From an uncultured Pelagibacteraceae bacterium (GTDB lineage Bacteria > Pseudomonadota > Alphaproteobacteria > Pelagibacterales > Pelagibacteraceae): DNA of 50,391 nucleotides. Each line of letters starts with the position of its first letter. Positions within the stretch are counted from its first letter, which is position 1. The DNA lies in contig CACMCJ010000007.1 in assembly GCA_902612235.1 (NCBI GenBank), positions 1-50,391 of the forward strand, in the 5' to 3' direction. A program made the translations under genes and the position numbers. The notes below the pieces were generated by a model. It was not told the origin of the DNA. It made no database searches and saw only the letters and a list, made by a program, of their open reading frames with translations. Shown piece after piece: positions 37,278-43,516 of the stretch.

Positions 37278-38540
37278 TCAAGATCTATTAAGTTTAAAAT
37301 CTAGGTATAAAGCAGCAGTCCAAGAAAAATTTTTAGCACCCATTCCTAAACCTGACTTACAACTGTAATATTCACGAAATTTTTTTTTTTCGACTAAATT
37401 AATGGTCTTTTTTCTTATTATTTCTGCAAACTTTTTATCTTTATTTTTTAATCCTTGATAAATAATCCAATTACAATTAACCCATACCGGTCCCCTCCAG
37501 TACCTCTTTTCCTCAAAAGATTTATGTTTAGAACTTATTGACGGAAAAAAATATTTCTCGTTTTTAGAATATTTTTTTAGGCTTTTAATTAACTCTCTAT
37601 TAATTAAATTATTGTTTAAATCAGCAAATAGCATAAAAAAATTAGTTATTGATGGTATTTCTACTGAAGTATTATTTTTAAGATCTTTATTTTTAAATTT
37701 CATTTTTTTTGAATTGTATAATTTTACAAGTTTGCTTTCATTTAAAAGAATATATTTTTTTAAAAAAGAGCTCTTTTTGCCTATAAATTTAAGTAAAAAA
37801 TCTAAATCTTTTAAAGCTTTTAAAAAAAGTGAATTAAAACCTACATCAACAACATTAAATTTTGATTTGAAGTAAAGTTTTTTAGGATCATAATTCAATT
37901 GTCTTAAGTGATTTTTTATCGTTACATATCTATCATAATCTATTTTTAGTGGTCTTTGACTTTTTTTAACAATTTTATTATCCTTTCTTTTGTAGTTAAG
38001 TTTAGAGTCTATTTTGACTTTACTCATCGGTTTGTCCCATAAAGGAGAATTGTCATACCCACTTTCCCATGGATGAAGTATGGAAATTAAACCAGTTCTT
38101 TTTGGATCTCTGTATCTAATAAACCATTTTAAATATTTTTTAATTTTTAATATTAAAGTTTGATATTTTTTTACTTTTTTTTTTGAAAATTTTTGTCTCT
38201 CAATAATTATCCTTAAAATACTTGCTAATATTGGTGGTTGAGTTATTCCAGATGAGGAAATTTTTCCACCACAATTCCAAGCTTTATAGTTAGGAGTATA
38301 ATTTAAATCTTTAATATGAAACAGAATATGTGGAATCATTCCATCATCCCACTGTCCCGAAATCAAAGTTTCAATTTCTTTAAATGAGTAATCTAAATTG
38401 AAATTAGAATATCCTAAAGCAATAAAAGCTGAGTCCCAATTCCACTGAGCTGGATAAAGTTTGGTATTAGTAGGTAAAGTATAATTTGATCTTCTATTAT
38501 TTATTAAAGTTTTTTTTGCAAATTTTATTGTACTATTCAT
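37278..38540 (-). CDS. MGH/GgH-like glycoside hydrolase (GH63-type)
   Basis: An (alpha/alpha)6-barrel hydrolase of 420 aa, the length of bacterial mannosylglycerate/glucosylglycerate hydrolases. Conserved stretches are QWNWDSAF (residues 32-38), GQWDDGMIPHI, PWESGYDNSPLWD with candidate acid Asp163, RYWRGPVWVNCNW, and the C-terminal FREYY...GLGMGAKNFSWTAAL with candidate catalytic Glu389. There is no signal peptide, so it acts in the cytoplasm on an imported glycoside. It shares one base with the ABC permease gene upstream and is last in the transporter operon. The family is well supported; the exact sugar is inferred. Confidence 0.82.
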   Translation of the reverse strand: MNSTIKFAKKTLINNRRSNYTLPTNTKLYPAQWNWDSAFIALGYSNFNLDYSFKEIETLISGQWDDGMIPHILFHIKDLNYTPNYKAWNCGGKISSSGITQPPILASILRIIIERQKFSKKKVKKYQTLILKIKKYLKWFIRYRDPKRTGLISILHPWESGYDNSPLWDKPMSKVKIDSKLNYKRKDNKIVKKSQRPLKIDYDRYVTIKNHLRQLNYDPKKLYFKSKFNVVDVGFNSLFLKALKDLDFLLKFIGKKSSFLKKYILLNESKLVKLYNSKKMKFKNKDLKNNTSVEIPSITNFFMLFADLNNNLINRELIKSLKKYSKNEKYFFPSISSKHKSFEEKRYWRGPVWVNCNWIIYQGLKNKDKKFAEIIRKKTINLVEKKKFREYYSCKSGLGMGAKNFSWTAALYLDFKLNRS

Positions 38541-39733
38541 TATCCTTTTACACTTCCAGCTGTTAAACCACTTACTAAATATTTTTCAAAATATACAAAA
38601 ATTAAAAGTATTGGCAAAGTGACTATCACTGATCCAGCCATTAAATATTGCCTTGGTGTTTCAGCGTCACCAGTTAAATGATTTATTGCTCTGGATAATG
38701 TGAATGTTTTTGGATTATCTAAAAACATTAGTGAAAACAAAAATTCATTCCAAGCTATCATAAATACGTATAATGATACTGAAGCAATAGCAGGTAAACT
38801 GAGAGGGATAATTATTTTAATAATTATTCCAAACCAGTCTTGCCCATCGATGAGTCCTGCCTCTTCAATTTCTTTGGGTATGCTTCTAAAATAACCTTGA
38901 AGCATATAAATCGCTACGGGCAAAGTAGTTGCTGTATAAACAATAAGTAATCCTCCAATTGAATTTCTCAAACCTAGTTGACTAAAAACAGTATATAATG
39001 GAATAACTAATACAATGGCTGGAAACATATAAATTATTAATATTGATGTTGAGAGAAAAGTTTTTCCAAAAAAATTTAATCTAGCAACAGCATAAGCTGC
39101 AGGTATAGCAAATAATAAAGTTATTAAAACTGTTCCAATAGATACATAAGAACTTGTAAGAATATATCTACCAAAATCATAAGTTTTGAAAATAACAAAG
39201 TATGATTTAAATATTTCAAAAATATTTTTTGAAATACCAATACTTAAATCTAGAGGATTTATCAGCAAAGCAGTCTGTGTTTTAAAGCTGGTAACAAACA
39301 TAATGTAAAAAGGAAATAATATGACTAATGCAAAAAATACTATTGCAAATAAAGACAAAAACTCAAACACGATTTTTTCTGATGTAAAATCCTGTATTAA
39401 ATATTTAAAATTATAATTCTTTAATTTATTTGTAAAAAATAAGGTTAATAAAAATATACCAAATGAAAACCAAAGAGGAGAGTTCTCAGTAAAAAAAGTA
39501 TATAAAATTGTAAATAATAAAGATAATATTAAAATTTTTAAAAGATGATTGAATTTATTTCCAATAAATATACAAATTAAAGTAAGTCCAAGTGATAATA
39601 ATAGATTTAGATTAAAGTTGAGACTAGTAAAATTTAAACCTTGTAAAGTTGCCATTATTTTCCATATACAAATTATTGTTGCTAAAAAAATTGATGATGC
39701 GAATAAAGTTATTATTAAAGATTTAAATTTCAT
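38540..39733 (-). CDS. Carbohydrate ABC transporter permease (MalG type) with extra N-terminal helices
   Basis: Inner-membrane permease of 397 aa. The MalG-like core begins near residue 123 (TM1, then PFYIMFVTSFK). It carries the EAA loop EIEEAGLIDGQDWFGIIIKIIIPL that contacts the ATPase. The first 120 residues are additional: about four hydrophobic segments at roughly 7-27, 41-58, 65-82 and 86-102 not found in ordinary 280-aa MalG proteins. It overlaps the other permease by 11 nt and the hydrolase by 1 nt. Confidence 0.9.
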   Translation of the reverse strand: MKFKSLIITLFASSIFLATIICIWKIMATLQGLNFTSLNFNLNLLLSLGLTLICIFIGNKFNHLLKILILSLLFTILYTFFTENSPLWFSFGIFLLTLFFTNKLKNYNFKYLIQDFTSEKIVFEFLSLFAIVFFALVILFPFYIMFVTSFKTQTALLINPLDLSIGISKNIFEIFKSYFVIFKTYDFGRYILTSSYVSIGTVLITLLFAIPAAYAVARLNFFGKTFLSTSILIIYMFPAIVLVIPLYTVFSQLGLRNSIGGLLIVYTATTLPVAIYMLQGYFRSIPKEIEEAGLIDGQDWFGIIIKIIIPLSLPAIASVSLYVFMIAWNEFLFSLMFLDNPKTFTLSRAINHLTGDAETPRQYLMAGSVIVTLPILLIFVYFEKYLVSGLTAGSVKG

Positions 39734-40982
39734 TTGCCTTCTTCCCGATTAATTTAAAATAAATAATCATAAAAGTTATTAATAATAGTACGATTACTAT
39801 TGAAACTGCTGAACCCATTCCAATATTTGATATCGCAAATCCTTGTTGATAGACACTGATTGGTAAAGTCAATGTGCCTGATGCACCGCCCGTTAATAAA
39901 AAAATATCTTCAAATTTATTAAAATTCCAAATAAATCTAATCATAAATAAAATAGACAAAATTGCTGTAATTTGTGGAAGAGTGATATAAAAAAATTTTC
40001 TAAATGGTCCAGCTCCATCGACATCTGCAGCTTCATAAAGATCCTTAGGGATACCTTGTAATCTTGCTAATATAAATAAAAAAGCTAATGGAAAATATCG
40101 CCAAATTTCAAAAAATATAACTGTGGTCAGTGCTAATCTTAGTTTAAATTCAATTCCTAACATATTTATAATTAAATACTTTTGTCCAAGTAAATTTATA
40201 GGTTTTTCAATAATTCCATAATTAATTAGAAGAGAATTAATAGTACCGCTATTTGGGTCCAAGAGTAAGGTCCAAGTATAAGCCAGGGCAACTACAGGAC
40301 CTACATAAGGAAAAAGTAGTATACTTCGTATAAATGATCTACCATAAAATTTTTGGTTTACCAGTTGAGCAGCAAATATACCAAGTATAATAGCGCCTAG
40401 TGTTCCAAAAAAAGTAAAATAAAAAGTTGTCATTAAAAGCTCAGAAAAATTGTTATTTAAGAAAACATTTTTAAAATTTTTAAGAGTAAAATCTGTTGTC
40501 AATAAAATATTGTCAGATTTTCCATTTAAATCTGGTTTATTAGCTTTAATTTTTTGAATATTAATATCGTTATTATTTGTCTCTTTAATTATAATTTCAA
40601 AATTCTCACGATAACCTGCCTCCCAATTCCCAAAAATACATTTAATTTTTTGTGACTTGAATTCACATCTTTTATCCAAATTAATTGGTTTAATATTTTT
40701 TGGAAATTTGTCTGAAAATTTAACTTCCTTAATATCTTGAATTAATGAGCTATTTCTTAGTTTATAGATAATTTTTAATTCAGAATTGTTATCCTGTTTG
40801 TTTTTAACGATTTTTTTTGCCCTTGGCTCAGGAATTCTTATATCTTTAAGTTCAACTTCTTTGAAACTAATCCATACATTTGCAAAAATTGGAAATAAAA
40901 TTATTGCAAAAACTAAGCATACAGCAGGTAAAAGAAGTATATATGCTGTCCTTTTTTCTATTTTTGATAGCGAGGTGCTCAT
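39723..40982 (-). CDS. Carbohydrate ABC transporter permease (MalF type) with a periplasmic insertion
   Basis: Inner-membrane permease of 419 aa. TM1 covers about residues 13-38 and the next helix starts only near 181. Between them lies a soluble stretch of about 120 residues, presumably periplasmic, with Cys106 and Cys115. Its pattern (LRNSS..., D.FPKNI, C...KIKCIFGNWEAG) resembles a DUF11/Ig-like repeat. The core then has the EAA loop EAADVDGAGPFRKFFYITLP. The start codon sits directly against a 16-bp hairpin with no ribosome-binding site before it. It pairs with the MalG-type permease and the solute-binding protein. Confidence 0.9.
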   Translation of the reverse strand: MSTSLSKIEKRTAYILLLPAVCLVFAIILFPIFANVWISFKEVELKDIRIPEPRAKKIVKNKQDNNSELKIIYKLRNSSLIQDIKEVKFSDKFPKNIKPINLDKRCEFKSQKIKCIFGNWEAGYRENFEIIIKETNNNDINIQKIKANKPDLNGKSDNILLTTDFTLKNFKNVFLNNNFSELLMTTFYFTFFGTLGAIILGIFAAQLVNQKFYGRSFIRSILLFPYVGPVVALAYTWTLLLDPNSGTINSLLINYGIIEKPINLLGQKYLIINMLGIEFKLRLALTTVIFFEIWRYFPLAFLFILARLQGIPKDLYEAADVDGAGPFRKFFYITLPQITAILSILFMIRFIWNFNKFEDIFLLTGGASGTLTLPISVYQQGFAISNIGMGSAVSIVIVLLLITFMIIYFKLIGKKANEI

Positions 40983-41017
40983 TTAAAAGCGGATAATATC
41001 TTATTATCCGCTTTTAA
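40983..41017 (-). terminator. Perfect 16-bp hairpin between binding-protein and permease genes
   Basis: The arms TTAAAAGCGGATAATA (40983-40998) and its exact complement (41002-41017) are separated by 3 nt. On the transcript the hairpin follows the binding-protein stop and its last base abuts the permease ATG at 40982. The U run is short, so it may be a partial terminator or an mRNA-stabilising stem rather than a full stop. Confidence 0.75.
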
Positions 41018-41029
41018 GAAATATATTTG

Positions 41030-42352
41030 CTAGAATTTTGCTAATTCAGCGTTGATTTTTTTAACTGCTTCATCAACAGATATCTGATCATCAATGTATT
41101 CCCTTGTAATTCTATTTAAGAATTGTGCGTTGATGATTTTTGATGCTCTAGAAAGTTCGCCTTCTTTTACTCCCCATCTGTTTGCAGTATCTAATCCTGC
41201 TACAATGTTATTAATTACATCTGGCGAATAAAGTTCAGTTAATGGTTTTTTTCTATCTACACCAACTGGTAGCTTACTCCAAGCTTTAGTGAATGCAGCC
41301 GGATCTGAAGAATTTCCTCTTCTTACAGGAAATTTTCCTTCAGGTGCAATCGCCAAAGTGCTTGTGTATCCTTCATCCATAGAGTACTCAACAAACTTTT
41401 TTGCTTCGTCAGTATCTGCGTCAGCAGTAATACCAAAATATCTCACGTCTGCCCAAGCAGCACCCTTCTTATTGTTTGGTCCACTAAAATTAGTGATGAA
41501 CCCAGTTTTGGATGCAAGTTCCGGTGATGTAGGATCACTATTGATTGTTGGAGGAGCTGAATCTCTTAGTCCAGCTAGTTCATCCATAATAAACGGTGAC
41601 CAAATTATCATTGGTGTTTTTCCTGCGAAATAAAGTTCTCTAGATTGTTTCCAGAATAATTCTCCTGGAGGACTAGCCTTAGCTATAACTTTATAAAATT
41701 CTAAAGAGTTTTTTAGAGCTTTTCCTTGCTTTTTTGTTCCACCCTTTTTAATAAAATTTACTCCGTTAGCTAAAAGAACATGCTCAAGAACTTGGCTCAT
41801 AAAGTTTTCATCAGTTTTGGTTGCAGCTACAAATCCAAACATGTCTCCGCCTGAAAGAACTTTCACAGCTTTTAAAATATTCTCGTAACTTGTTGGTGGC
41901 TCAAGACCTGCATTTTTAAATAAGTCCTTTCTATAAACTACCATTTGTGTCCATCCATCAACTGGTACAGCAGCAATTTTTCCACCTTTTTTTGCCATGT
42001 TCAATGCCCCTGGAGCAAAAGTTTTTTTTCCTAAACTTTTAACTACATCATTGTTTGCATTCACATCAAGTATGCCTGCTTCGGCCCAAGGTAAAACATA
42101 TTGAAGAGTATGATATATTACATCTGGAAGATTTCCTGCAGCTGCAGCGGCAGTTGCTCTAGACCCTAAATCTTTTTCCTCAACTGGAATAACTTCAACT
42201 TTAATACCAGTTTTGGACTCGAATGATTTTGCCATTTCCATTTGTTTTTCCATTCTTGCCGGCTGAACTTCAGTAGTCCAAAAAGTAATATCTGCAAAAC
42301 TATTAGACGTTAATAAAGTTAAAGCAAAAATGAATACTGTTATTTTTTTCAT
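41030..42352 (-). CDS. Periplasmic sugar/solute-binding protein (family 1)
   Basis: Extracellular solute-binding protein of the MalE/UgpB cluster, 440 aa. The N-terminal signal peptide ends near residue 20 (NSFADITFW). Typical family features are the bilobal length, LPDVIYHTLQYVLPWAEAGIL, and the aromatic-rich C-terminal half. It lies upstream of both permeases on the same strand and delivers the ligand to them. The ligand is unknown; the linked MGH-like hydrolase suggests a glycoside such as glucosylglycerate or mannosylglycerate. It has a strong Shine-Dalgarno, unusual in this window, implying high expression. Confidence 0.92.
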   Translation of the reverse strand: MKKITVFIFALTLLTSNSFADITFWTTEVQPARMEKQMEMAKSFESKTGIKVEVIPVEEKDLGSRATAAAAAGNLPDVIYHTLQYVLPWAEAGILDVNANNDVVKSLGKKTFAPGALNMAKKGGKIAAVPVDGWTQMVVYRKDLFKNAGLEPPTSYENILKAVKVLSGGDMFGFVAATKTDENFMSQVLEHVLLANGVNFIKKGGTKKQGKALKNSLEFYKVIAKASPPGELFWKQSRELYFAGKTPMIIWSPFIMDELAGLRDSAPPTINSDPTSPELASKTGFITNFSGPNNKKGAAWADVRYFGITADADTDEAKKFVEYSMDEGYTSTLAIAPEGKFPVRRGNSSDPAAFTKAWSKLPVGVDRKKPLTELYSPDVINNIVAGLDTANRWGVKEGELSRASKIINAQFLNRITREYIDDQISVDEAVKKINAELAKF

Positions 42353-42460: not shown

Positions 42461-43516
42461 ATGGCTTTTTTAGAATTTAAAGATATAGACAAATCCTTTG
42501 GTGAAAACCATGTAATTAGAAAATTTAACCTAGAGGTTGAAAAAGGTAAATTTATAGTATTGCTAGGACCATCTGGTTGCGGAAAATCTACACTACTAAG
42601 GATGATAGCTGGGTTAGAAAAAATAGATGAAGGGAAAATCTTTTTAGAAAACAATCTTCTTAATGATTTGTTACCTTCTAAAAGGCAAATTGCAATGGTT
42701 TTCCAATCATATGCTTTGTATCCACACATGAATGTTTTTCAAAATATCTCTTTTGGCCTTAAATCTGAAAAAATTTCAAAAAATGAAATTAAAGATAAAG
42801 TAATTGAAGCAGCAAAAATTTTAAAAATTGAAGAATTTTTGGATAGAAAGCCAAAGGAACTTTCAGGAGGACAGAGGCAGCGAGTTGCTATTGGAAGGGC
42901 TATAACTAGAAATCCCAAATTATTTTTATTTGATGAACCTCTTTCTAATTTAGATGCAGCTCTAAGGTCAGAGATGAGAGTTGAAATTTCAAAATTACAT
43001 AAGAAACTTAAAAGTAATATTGTATACGTAACTCATGATCAAATTGAGGCTATGACTTTAGCTGATAAAATTGTGATAATGAATAAAGGAAAAATTGAAC
43101 AATTTGGAACTCCTGATGAAATCTATGATAATCCAAATAATATTTTTGTCGCTGAATTTATTGGAAATCCTAAAATGAATATTTTTAAGATCAAAACTAA
43201 AGATATTATTAATAAAAATACGTTTAAATTATTTAATAAAGAAATTAAATTTGAAAATTCAAAGTTTAAAAATGAGTTTTATGTAGGTATTAGGCCAGAA
43301 CATTTATCTTTAGAAAATAGAAGTGAAATTTCAGCTGAAATTAAAATCGATCTTATTGAAAATTTAGGTTCCGAGAAAATAATCTACACGCATGTAAATG
43401 GTGCTGAAATAAGAATAAAAAGTACTAAAAATATTAAAGATAAAAATATTACAATTTACTTACCTAAAAATAAGTTATATTTATTTGATAATAATAAAAA
43501 TAGATTAAAAACGTGA
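42461..43516 (+). CDS. Sugar ABC transporter ATP-binding protein (UgpC/MsmK type)
   Basis: ATPase of the CUT1 sugar transporter family, 351 aa. Walker A GPSGCGKST is at residues 36-44, Q-loop VFQSYALYPHM, signature LSGGQRQRVAIGRA, Walker B LFLFDEPLSNLDAALR, and H-loop VTHDQ. The C-terminal 110 residues form the TOBE domain (VGIRPEHLSL). It is transcribed away from the binding-protein and permease genes but is surely their ATPase. It could also serve other sugar permeases, as MsmK-type ATPases do. tRNA-Cys follows 27 nt after its stop. Confidence 0.94.
   Translation: MAFLEFKDIDKSFGENHVIRKFNLEVEKGKFIVLLGPSGCGKSTLLRMIAGLEKIDEGKIFLENNLLNDLLPSKRQIAMVFQSYALYPHMNVFQNISFGLKSEKISKNEIKDKVIEAAKILKIEEFLDRKPKELSGGQRQRVAIGRAITRNPKLFLFDEPLSNLDAALRSEMRVEISKLHKKLKSNIVYVTHDQIEAMTLADKIVIMNKGKIEQFGTPDEIYDNPNNIFVAEFIGNPKMNIFKIKTKDIINKNTFKLFNKEIKFENSKFKNEFYVGIRPEHLSLENRSEISAEIKIDLIENLGSEKIIYTHVNGAEIRIKSTKNIKDKNITIYLPKNKLYLFDNNKNRLKT

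Follow-up and report, generated by a model that had tools for sequence, protein, structure and literature searches.

Among binding-protein-dependent sugar importers, the P2 domain of MalF, which has an Ig-like fold, is the textbook example of how part of a permease can hold on to the binding protein. A figure legend of PMC3150292 assigns P2 to residues 91-271 of MalF, and passages of this paper describe direct contact of a segment within MalF-P2 with MalE. In the E. coli MalFGK2-MalE system, P2 is a large soluble domain in a periplasmic loop of the permease, the same loop that carries the inserted domain described here. By sequence, the closest solved relatives of the permease of interest are SugA-type permeases and MalF, with SugA of LpqY-SugABC the closest of all and sharing the common core; the entries concerned, 7cad and 8ja7, represent what we take to be the mycobacterial trehalose importer. 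The other family that has to be considered is DUF11 (PF01345; TIGR01451), an Ig-like fold that is usually found as copies in long secreted proteins, a setting that is not strictly defining for the family.

The inserted segment of a MalF-type permease

The window analyzed here, a stretch of 50,391 nucleotides from an uncultured Pelagibacteraceae bacterium, encodes a MalF-type sugar ABC permease of 419 aa (39723..40982, minus strand). Like other CUT1 (MalFG-type) permeases it has both a BPD_transp_1 domain (1.8e-14) and an EAA loop, which we take to be EAADVDGAGPFRKFFYITLP at residues 317-336. The alignment of this permease to SugA (7cad_A) consists of two pieces, residues 6-46 and 167-415, of which the short first piece is weak by itself (i-Evalue 0.062). 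Between the two pieces lie 9 residues in SugA versus 120 in the permease, so that the latter has ~111 extra residues. The SugA alignment gap, together with hydropathy, delimits an inserted domain, probably on the periplasmic side of the membrane, at residues 46-166 (40485..40847, minus strand). It is located between TM1 (residues 15-33; 40884..40940, minus strand) and the first TM after the insert (residues 182-200; 40383..40439, minus strand), both of which were placed by hydropathy. Within residues 46-166, every 19-residue window averages 0.03 or less, and the region is therefore regarded as soluble. A reading made earlier from the sequence only had proposed a soluble stretch between TM1 and TM2, and both hydropathy and the SugA gap agree with it; of the interval it had given, the part for residues 42-165 (40488-40859) holds, whereas positions 40400-40487 belong to the approach to TM2 and its start. 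The DxFPxNI...C... pattern to which that reading had drawn attention is present at D91-I97, C106 and C115, as D91-x-F93-P94-x-N96-I97 ... C106 ... K-I-K-C115-I-F-G-N-W-E-A-G. The cysteine pair C106 to C115 (40638..40667, minus strand) is invariant in 21/21 aligned sequences, from SAR11 and others, and is a probable disulfide.

We further analyzed the insert by structure prediction. From 54 aligned inserts, i.e., that of the window and those of 53 of 80 SAR11 loci, AlphaFold2 predicted an all-beta domain in which eight strands are accompanied by a single short helix (mean pLDDT 83, pTM 0.73). The predicted all-beta part covers residues 54-156 (40515..40823, minus strand), and its strands are the same in the insert-only model and in a model of the full-length permease. 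The latter is poor overall (mean pLDDT 51, pTM 0.32), the membrane part included; its local pLDDT is 74-87 at residues 51-150 and drops past residue 150. With the insert model as the query, Foldseek returned 16 matches at E<=0.001, to beta-sandwiches that are presumably of the Ig-like type. VIA-align superposed the insert on the mu2-adaptin MHD (Z 11.3, rmsd 2.2, 109 aligned), the alpha-macroglobulin (A2M) receptor-binding domain (Z 10.3), integrin alpha-V (Z 9.6) and a cellulose-binding module (Z 9.5). These matches reflect a common arrangement and do not indicate function. MalF chains are not among the best 50 structure matches, which has no bearing either way on a common fold, and a PDB sequence search with the insert alone gave no match at E<=10. 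The insert is predicted to be an ordered Ig-like beta-sandwich. Disorder of the segment was also considered, and was ruled out by the AlphaFold2 model with its pLDDT of 83. The structure prediction that had been proposed with the sequence-only reading thus yielded neither disorder nor a domain that matches MalF_P2 by sequence.

The comparison with P2 concerns the position of the domain in the permease. The MalF alignment starts at permease residue 160, which corresponds to MalF 256, at the end of P2, and the MalF_P2 profile (PF14785) sits in the same TM1-TM2 loop of a control MalF (L190 in genome G689; 205 bits). Since P2 of E. coli MalF occupies this slot, a soluble domain at the place of the insert has a precedent. 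By sequence, the two domains show no significant relation: the MalF_P2 profile did not match the SAR11 permease or its insert at E<=10, and hhalign of the insert against MalF P2 aligned about 31 columns at a score of 24 and a probability of 8-10, which is not significant (no decoy set for P2). On these grounds the insert was rejected as a MalF_P2 homologue by sequence. The domains also differ in size, the insert having about 110 residues and the Pfam MalF_P2 model 164.

Relationship to DUF11, distribution and selection

The relationship of the insert to DUF11 was traced through its orthologues. Neither the SAR11 permease nor its insert matched Pfam DUF11 (PF01345, gathering cut-off 24.6 bits) at E<=10, and the DUF11 profile found no match in the source genome sequence examined. 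Among the non-SAR11 orthologous inserts, 16/22 match Pfam DUF11 at E<=0.01. Fifteen orthologues were scored individually; five of them are above 24.6 bits (L084, 32.7; L129, 28.9; L083, 28.2; L168, 25.7; L130, 25.7), and at the other end of this group L088 fails to match DUF11 even at E<=10, and L131 does not match it at E<=0.01. After DUF11, the next most frequent family is DUF7933, which matches 14 of the 22 non-SAR11 inserts with a weaker best E, and the NCBIfam model of the DUF11 repeat (TIGR01451) reached 16.1 bits in L084, below its cut-off of 24.

Profile-profile comparison pointed the same way. For this analysis a DUF11 alignment of 22 rows was made from 40 listed matches, leaving out the permease, matches with no locus available, weak matches, frames with inner stops and a few others. 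Against it, the insert family scored 61.7-66.5 in hhalign (probability 97), compared to a maximum of 17.4 for 200 column-shuffled decoys. The SAR11 rows alone scored 18.3 (2.8%), which is not significant, so that the assignment of the SAR11 insert to DUF11 rests on its match to the orthologous inserts, for which hhalign gave a probability of 99.7. A DUF11 call from the SAR11 copy by itself was rejected, this copy being too diverged. The DUF11-aligning segment, taken from the hhalign range of the SAR11 rows, comprises residues about 69-133 (40584..40778, minus strand), and its significance derives from the orthologues.

When the profile of the insert was run against 398 genomes of the phylum, 19 matched, 16 of them over the full length and all of these in its own class; the remaining three matches are weak and lie in DUF11 repeat proteins. 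In genome G022 there is a weak second match to the insert profile inside a 3202-residue frame. In the opposite direction, a DUF11 search over 142 genomes of the class gave 7 above the cut-off, and the sole match in one of them (G109) is the insert-bearing permease. Thus, the search with DUF11 finds the permease and the search with the insert finds DUF11 proteins, so that the two families are linked whichever of them serves as the query. Overall, few genomes of the class have DUF11.

The orthologous inserts share the RNSS, D..P and C...C features of DUF11. The most conserved residues of the insert are Y, RNSS, D..P and C..C, mostly the DUF11 framework; the cysteines are invariant in all alignments, and RNSS and D are not quite invariant in the larger set. 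The Ig-like beta-sandwich that characterizes DUF11 is also what the structure prediction shows. The setting is different: in DUF11 repeat proteins of the surface, copies follow one another in a long chain, whereas the permease has one copy in a polytopic membrane protein, and in SAR11 this copy alone is below detection. On the sequence evidence from its orthologues, the insert is a DUF11-type domain. The initial suggestion of a DUF11/Ig-like domain is thereby upheld, through orthologues above the Pfam cut-off, profile links in two directions and the predicted beta-sandwich; the profile search that was to examine it succeeded with the orthologues and failed with the SAR11 copy by itself.

A survey of SAR11 permeases, likewise proposed at the outset, found the insert in many genomes of the order. 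In a genome scan, the insert region is present in 80/80 SAR11 loci, the best 80 of 440 relatives, with one truncated after residue 396; since the 80 most similar were kept, this sample leans towards carriers. A match at E<=1e-20 is found in 48 of 147 genomes sampled from the order, and in 44 this is to the insert-bearing permease (43 full, 1 truncated at a contig end). This permease is therefore carried by about 30% of the genomes in the sample (44/147), with incomplete genomes counted as they are. In the other 4/48, the match is solely to a different permease and starts only at residue 166 or 167; a second permease of this kind is also found in 8/44 of the carriers. Within the family of G267, the insert is present in 17/29 genomes. 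In a sample of the class, 8/289 genomes, the source genome included, match over TM1, insert and core with 45-100% identity, and the other matches listed all start at or after residue 156. Among the genomes searched, full-length matches to the insert are limited to the insert-bearing permease subfamily. Relative to eleven non-SAR11 permeases of this subfamily, the window's permease is 53-55% identical in the core and 23-32% in the insert.

A tree was calculated from 54 cores, of which 28 are insert-bearing, 22 are insert-free and 4 are MalF. All 28 insert-bearing cores are on one side of a branch with support 100/99, and none of the insert-free or MalF cores is inside. The nearest insert-free row, L089, is on a long branch, and the output of the tree calculation flags the insert-free rows for the long branches among them; L170, a near-copy of L169, had been left out of the family alignment and the tree. 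Most likely, the insert was gained once by the ancestor of the subfamily. Several independent gains within the insert-bearing permeases were rejected as the simplest reading, given one clade at 100/99. Because the MalF cores are outside the clade with that support, the simplest reading of the sequences is that a domain was gained at this one slot on two occasions, in MalF and in the insert-bearing clade separately. The permease of genome G155 (L082/L122) falls inside the SAR11 branch and is 74% identical to that of the window, in a genome assigned to another family; the genome is incomplete and the contig has a length of 5.2 kb, which points to a binning error or transfer.

Selection was assessed in the SAR11 loci. 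The SAR11 alignments contained 80 rows (the window and 79/80 loci, L036 being cut and dropped) or 54 rows (the window and 53/80). In 9 SAR11 pairs, the insert has a dN/dS of 0.10-0.19, compared to 0.03-0.07 in the core; the insert is therefore a maintained protein domain, a product of neither chance nor decay. A frameshift or a decaying stretch was rejected as well, since the region occurs in every one of the 80 SAR11 loci retained and evolves under purifying selection.

The operon and its possible substrate

The permease gene is preceded by that of the cognate extracellular solute-binding protein (SBP_bac_8/SBP_bac_1; 41030..42352, minus strand), the putative docking partner of the insert, which was identified by profile match and operon comparison. 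It is followed by the gene of the MalG-type partner permease (38540..39733, minus strand), in which profile match and hydropathy reveal an extra hydrophobic N-terminal region of ~118 aa, and then by that of an MGH1-like/GH63-related hydrolase (37278..38540, minus strand). The hydrolase is related to glucosylglycerate hydrolase: NF047898, the model of that enzyme, is its best NCBIfam match with 283 bits, below the equivalog cut-off of 550. A UgpC/MalK-type ATPase (42461..43516, plus strand), recognized by profile match and operon comparison and probably of the same importer, is encoded divergently. An intercistronic hairpin (40984..41016, minus strand; 15 bp, -17.9 kcal/mol) separates the binding-protein gene from the permease gene, and may serve to keep the amount of binding protein above that of the permease. 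A perfect stem of at least 9 bp is present within the 50 nt before the permease in 56/80 SAR11 loci; L038 and L044 fail this test and yet have the same hairpin arms with one changed base.

At 21 loci examined, the binding protein was found at 20, the MalG-type permease at 21, the ATPase at 17 and the hydrolase at 16. Some of these misses are contig ends, as is the one for the binding protein. The available flanks of L044, L060, L124 and L133 contain no match to the hydrolase, and those of L068 and L080 none to the ATPase. In the SAR11 loci L044 (7443-11257) and L060, the insert-bearing permease occurs with no hydrolase match behind the MalG gene, and in L044 other genes take this place. The ATPase gene is divergent in all six SAR11 loci where it was found, and co-directional at the operon end in non-SAR11 relatives.

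The binding protein of the window is 52-65% identical to those of ten non-SAR11 operons. Five relatives are plasmid-borne, in Thalassospira marina, Limimaricola variabilis, Ruegeria conchae, Maritalea myrionectae and Paroceanicella profunda; all five plasmid operons encode the binding protein, the insert-bearing permease, a carbohydrate permease and the ATPase. The MGH1-like hydrolase, annotated as 'hypothetical protein', is present in 4/5, and a glycerate kinase adjoins 2/5 (L130 and L132). A MalG extension comparable to that of the window is seen in these five relatives; in all six, 2 to 4 TM segments are predicted in it, and its sequence is little conserved. The insert-free relative in G247 (L089/L209) has neither the insert nor the MalG N-terminal extension; its operon encodes a LacI-like regulator and a GH13-like enzyme (both named by inspection), together with a binding protein that is 30% identical, permeases that are 35 and 38% identical and an ATPase that is 43% identical to those described here.

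With a hydrolase nearest to glucosylglycerate hydrolase and a glycerate kinase in the context of the operons, the gene context suggests that the substrate is glucosylglycerate or a similar glycoside of glycerate. According to a passage in PMC12636525, offshore SAR11 genera have genes to make glucosylglycerate, so the hydrolase could also serve a solute of the cell's own.

A candidate docking domain for the binding protein

We propose, with a probability of roughly 0.55, that the insert is a DUF11-derived counterpart of P2 on which the cognate binding protein docks, possibly in a glucosylglycerate-type importer. The permease belongs to an alphaproteobacterial subfamily, forming one clade, of MalFG-type (type I) sugar importers, and the ancestor of this subfamily most likely gained one DUF11-type Ig-like sandwich of ~110 residues in the periplasmic TM1-TM2 loop. 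Standing on the periplasmic face of the permease as P2 does in MalF, the sandwich would provide a second grip on the cognate solute-binding protein, so that the latter would be held over the translocation pore through the ATP cycle. We infer docking by analogy with P2, and it is the best reading because the sandwich is fixed at both ends beside the pore of an importer that is dependent on a binding protein.

To compare the evolution of the insert with that of its partners, mirror-tree correlations were calculated for 55/80 SAR11 loci and 10/10 non-SAR11 operons. In the 10 non-SAR11 operons, the partial r between insert and binding protein is 0.46, with 4/500 permutations as high, and in the 55 SAR11 operons it is 0.09 (31/500). 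In SAR11, the mean distance is 0.07 for the binding protein, the most conserved part compared, versus 0.26 for the insert, among the least conserved, which is unlike the expectation for a tight, invariant interface. The measure is noisy, since the insert in the SAR11 operons also correlates with the ATPase (0.30, 0/500), and the ATPase cannot touch a periplasmic domain. With covariation this weak and mixed, docking is placed no higher than stated above, and a role in assembly is kept well below it.

In such an assembly role, the insert would be an assembly or stability partner of the MalG-type subunit, packing with its ~118-residue N-terminal extension and holding the heterodimer in place of the binding protein. 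The insert and the MalG extension co-occur in the window and the five plasmid operons, and the nearest insert-free relative, L209, is without both; in SAR11, moreover, the distances of the insert correlate with those of the MalG extension once the rest of the operon is accounted for (partial r 0.57, 0/500). This correlation is absent, however, from the 10 non-SAR11 operons (-0.08, 354/500), and fast-evolving regions can correlate without contact, as the value for the cytoplasmic ATPase illustrates. The MalG extension is also predicted to be in the membrane, where there would be little for a soluble domain to hold. We therefore consider an assembly role unlikely.

Besides docking to the binding protein, the sequence-only reading had raised the prospect that the domain touches the envelope. 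An adhesin-like insert might reach peptidoglycan, the outer membrane or a neighboring protein, and most other DUF11 matches in the searched genomes are indeed in long open frames, several of them surface-protein-like. A single domain of ~110 residues with both ends anchored in the inner membrane makes this very improbable, as do full-length insert matches only in the permease subfamily and a binding protein adjacent in 20/21 loci. A contribution to solute binding, in which the sandwich would bind sugar like a carbohydrate-binding module and raise its local concentration at the pore, appears slightly less probable still: the fold matches include cellulose- and chitin-binding modules, but unrelated sandwiches match equally well or better, the most conserved residues of the insert are mostly those of the DUF11 framework, and a dedicated binding protein is already part of the importer. 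The least probable reading is a functionless, tolerated spacer, given that the insert has a dN/dS of 0.10-0.19, even if this exceeds the value for the core by a factor of about two to four and type I permeases elsewhere manage without an insert, that its framework residues and cysteines are invariant across 21 divergent sequences, and that no insert-free core is found within the clade, in a small genome (965 kb of sequence).

Returning to docking, the parts of the system are known, i.e., the permease family, the domain family and the slot, and in the literature searched, by titles and abstract openings, no permease with a DUF11 domain was encountered. The initial view of the domain as an undescribed permease feature thus needs qualification for the slot, in which MalF P2 is a precedent for a soluble domain, and within that search stands for DUF11. 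We see about even odds that an adhesin-type DUF11 was domesticated once in Alphaproteobacteria as a binding-protein docking domain, converging on MalF P2, and is now present in a good part of SAR11 (44/147 genomes of the order). If so, placing an Ig-like domain between TM1 and TM2 would be a general means by which type I importers are tuned. A second domain family in the P2 slot would show that the recruitment of such modules by importers is not a single event. Glucosylglycerate is described in a passage of PMC3686209 as a likely osmolyte of most Prochlorococcus strains; if it is the substrate, as gene context suggests, the importer could tie SAR11 to this Prochlorococcus osmolyte. The insert-bearing clade and its insert-free relative would offer a natural comparison for the benefit of an extra grip, a question of importance for oligotrophs living on very dilute solutes.
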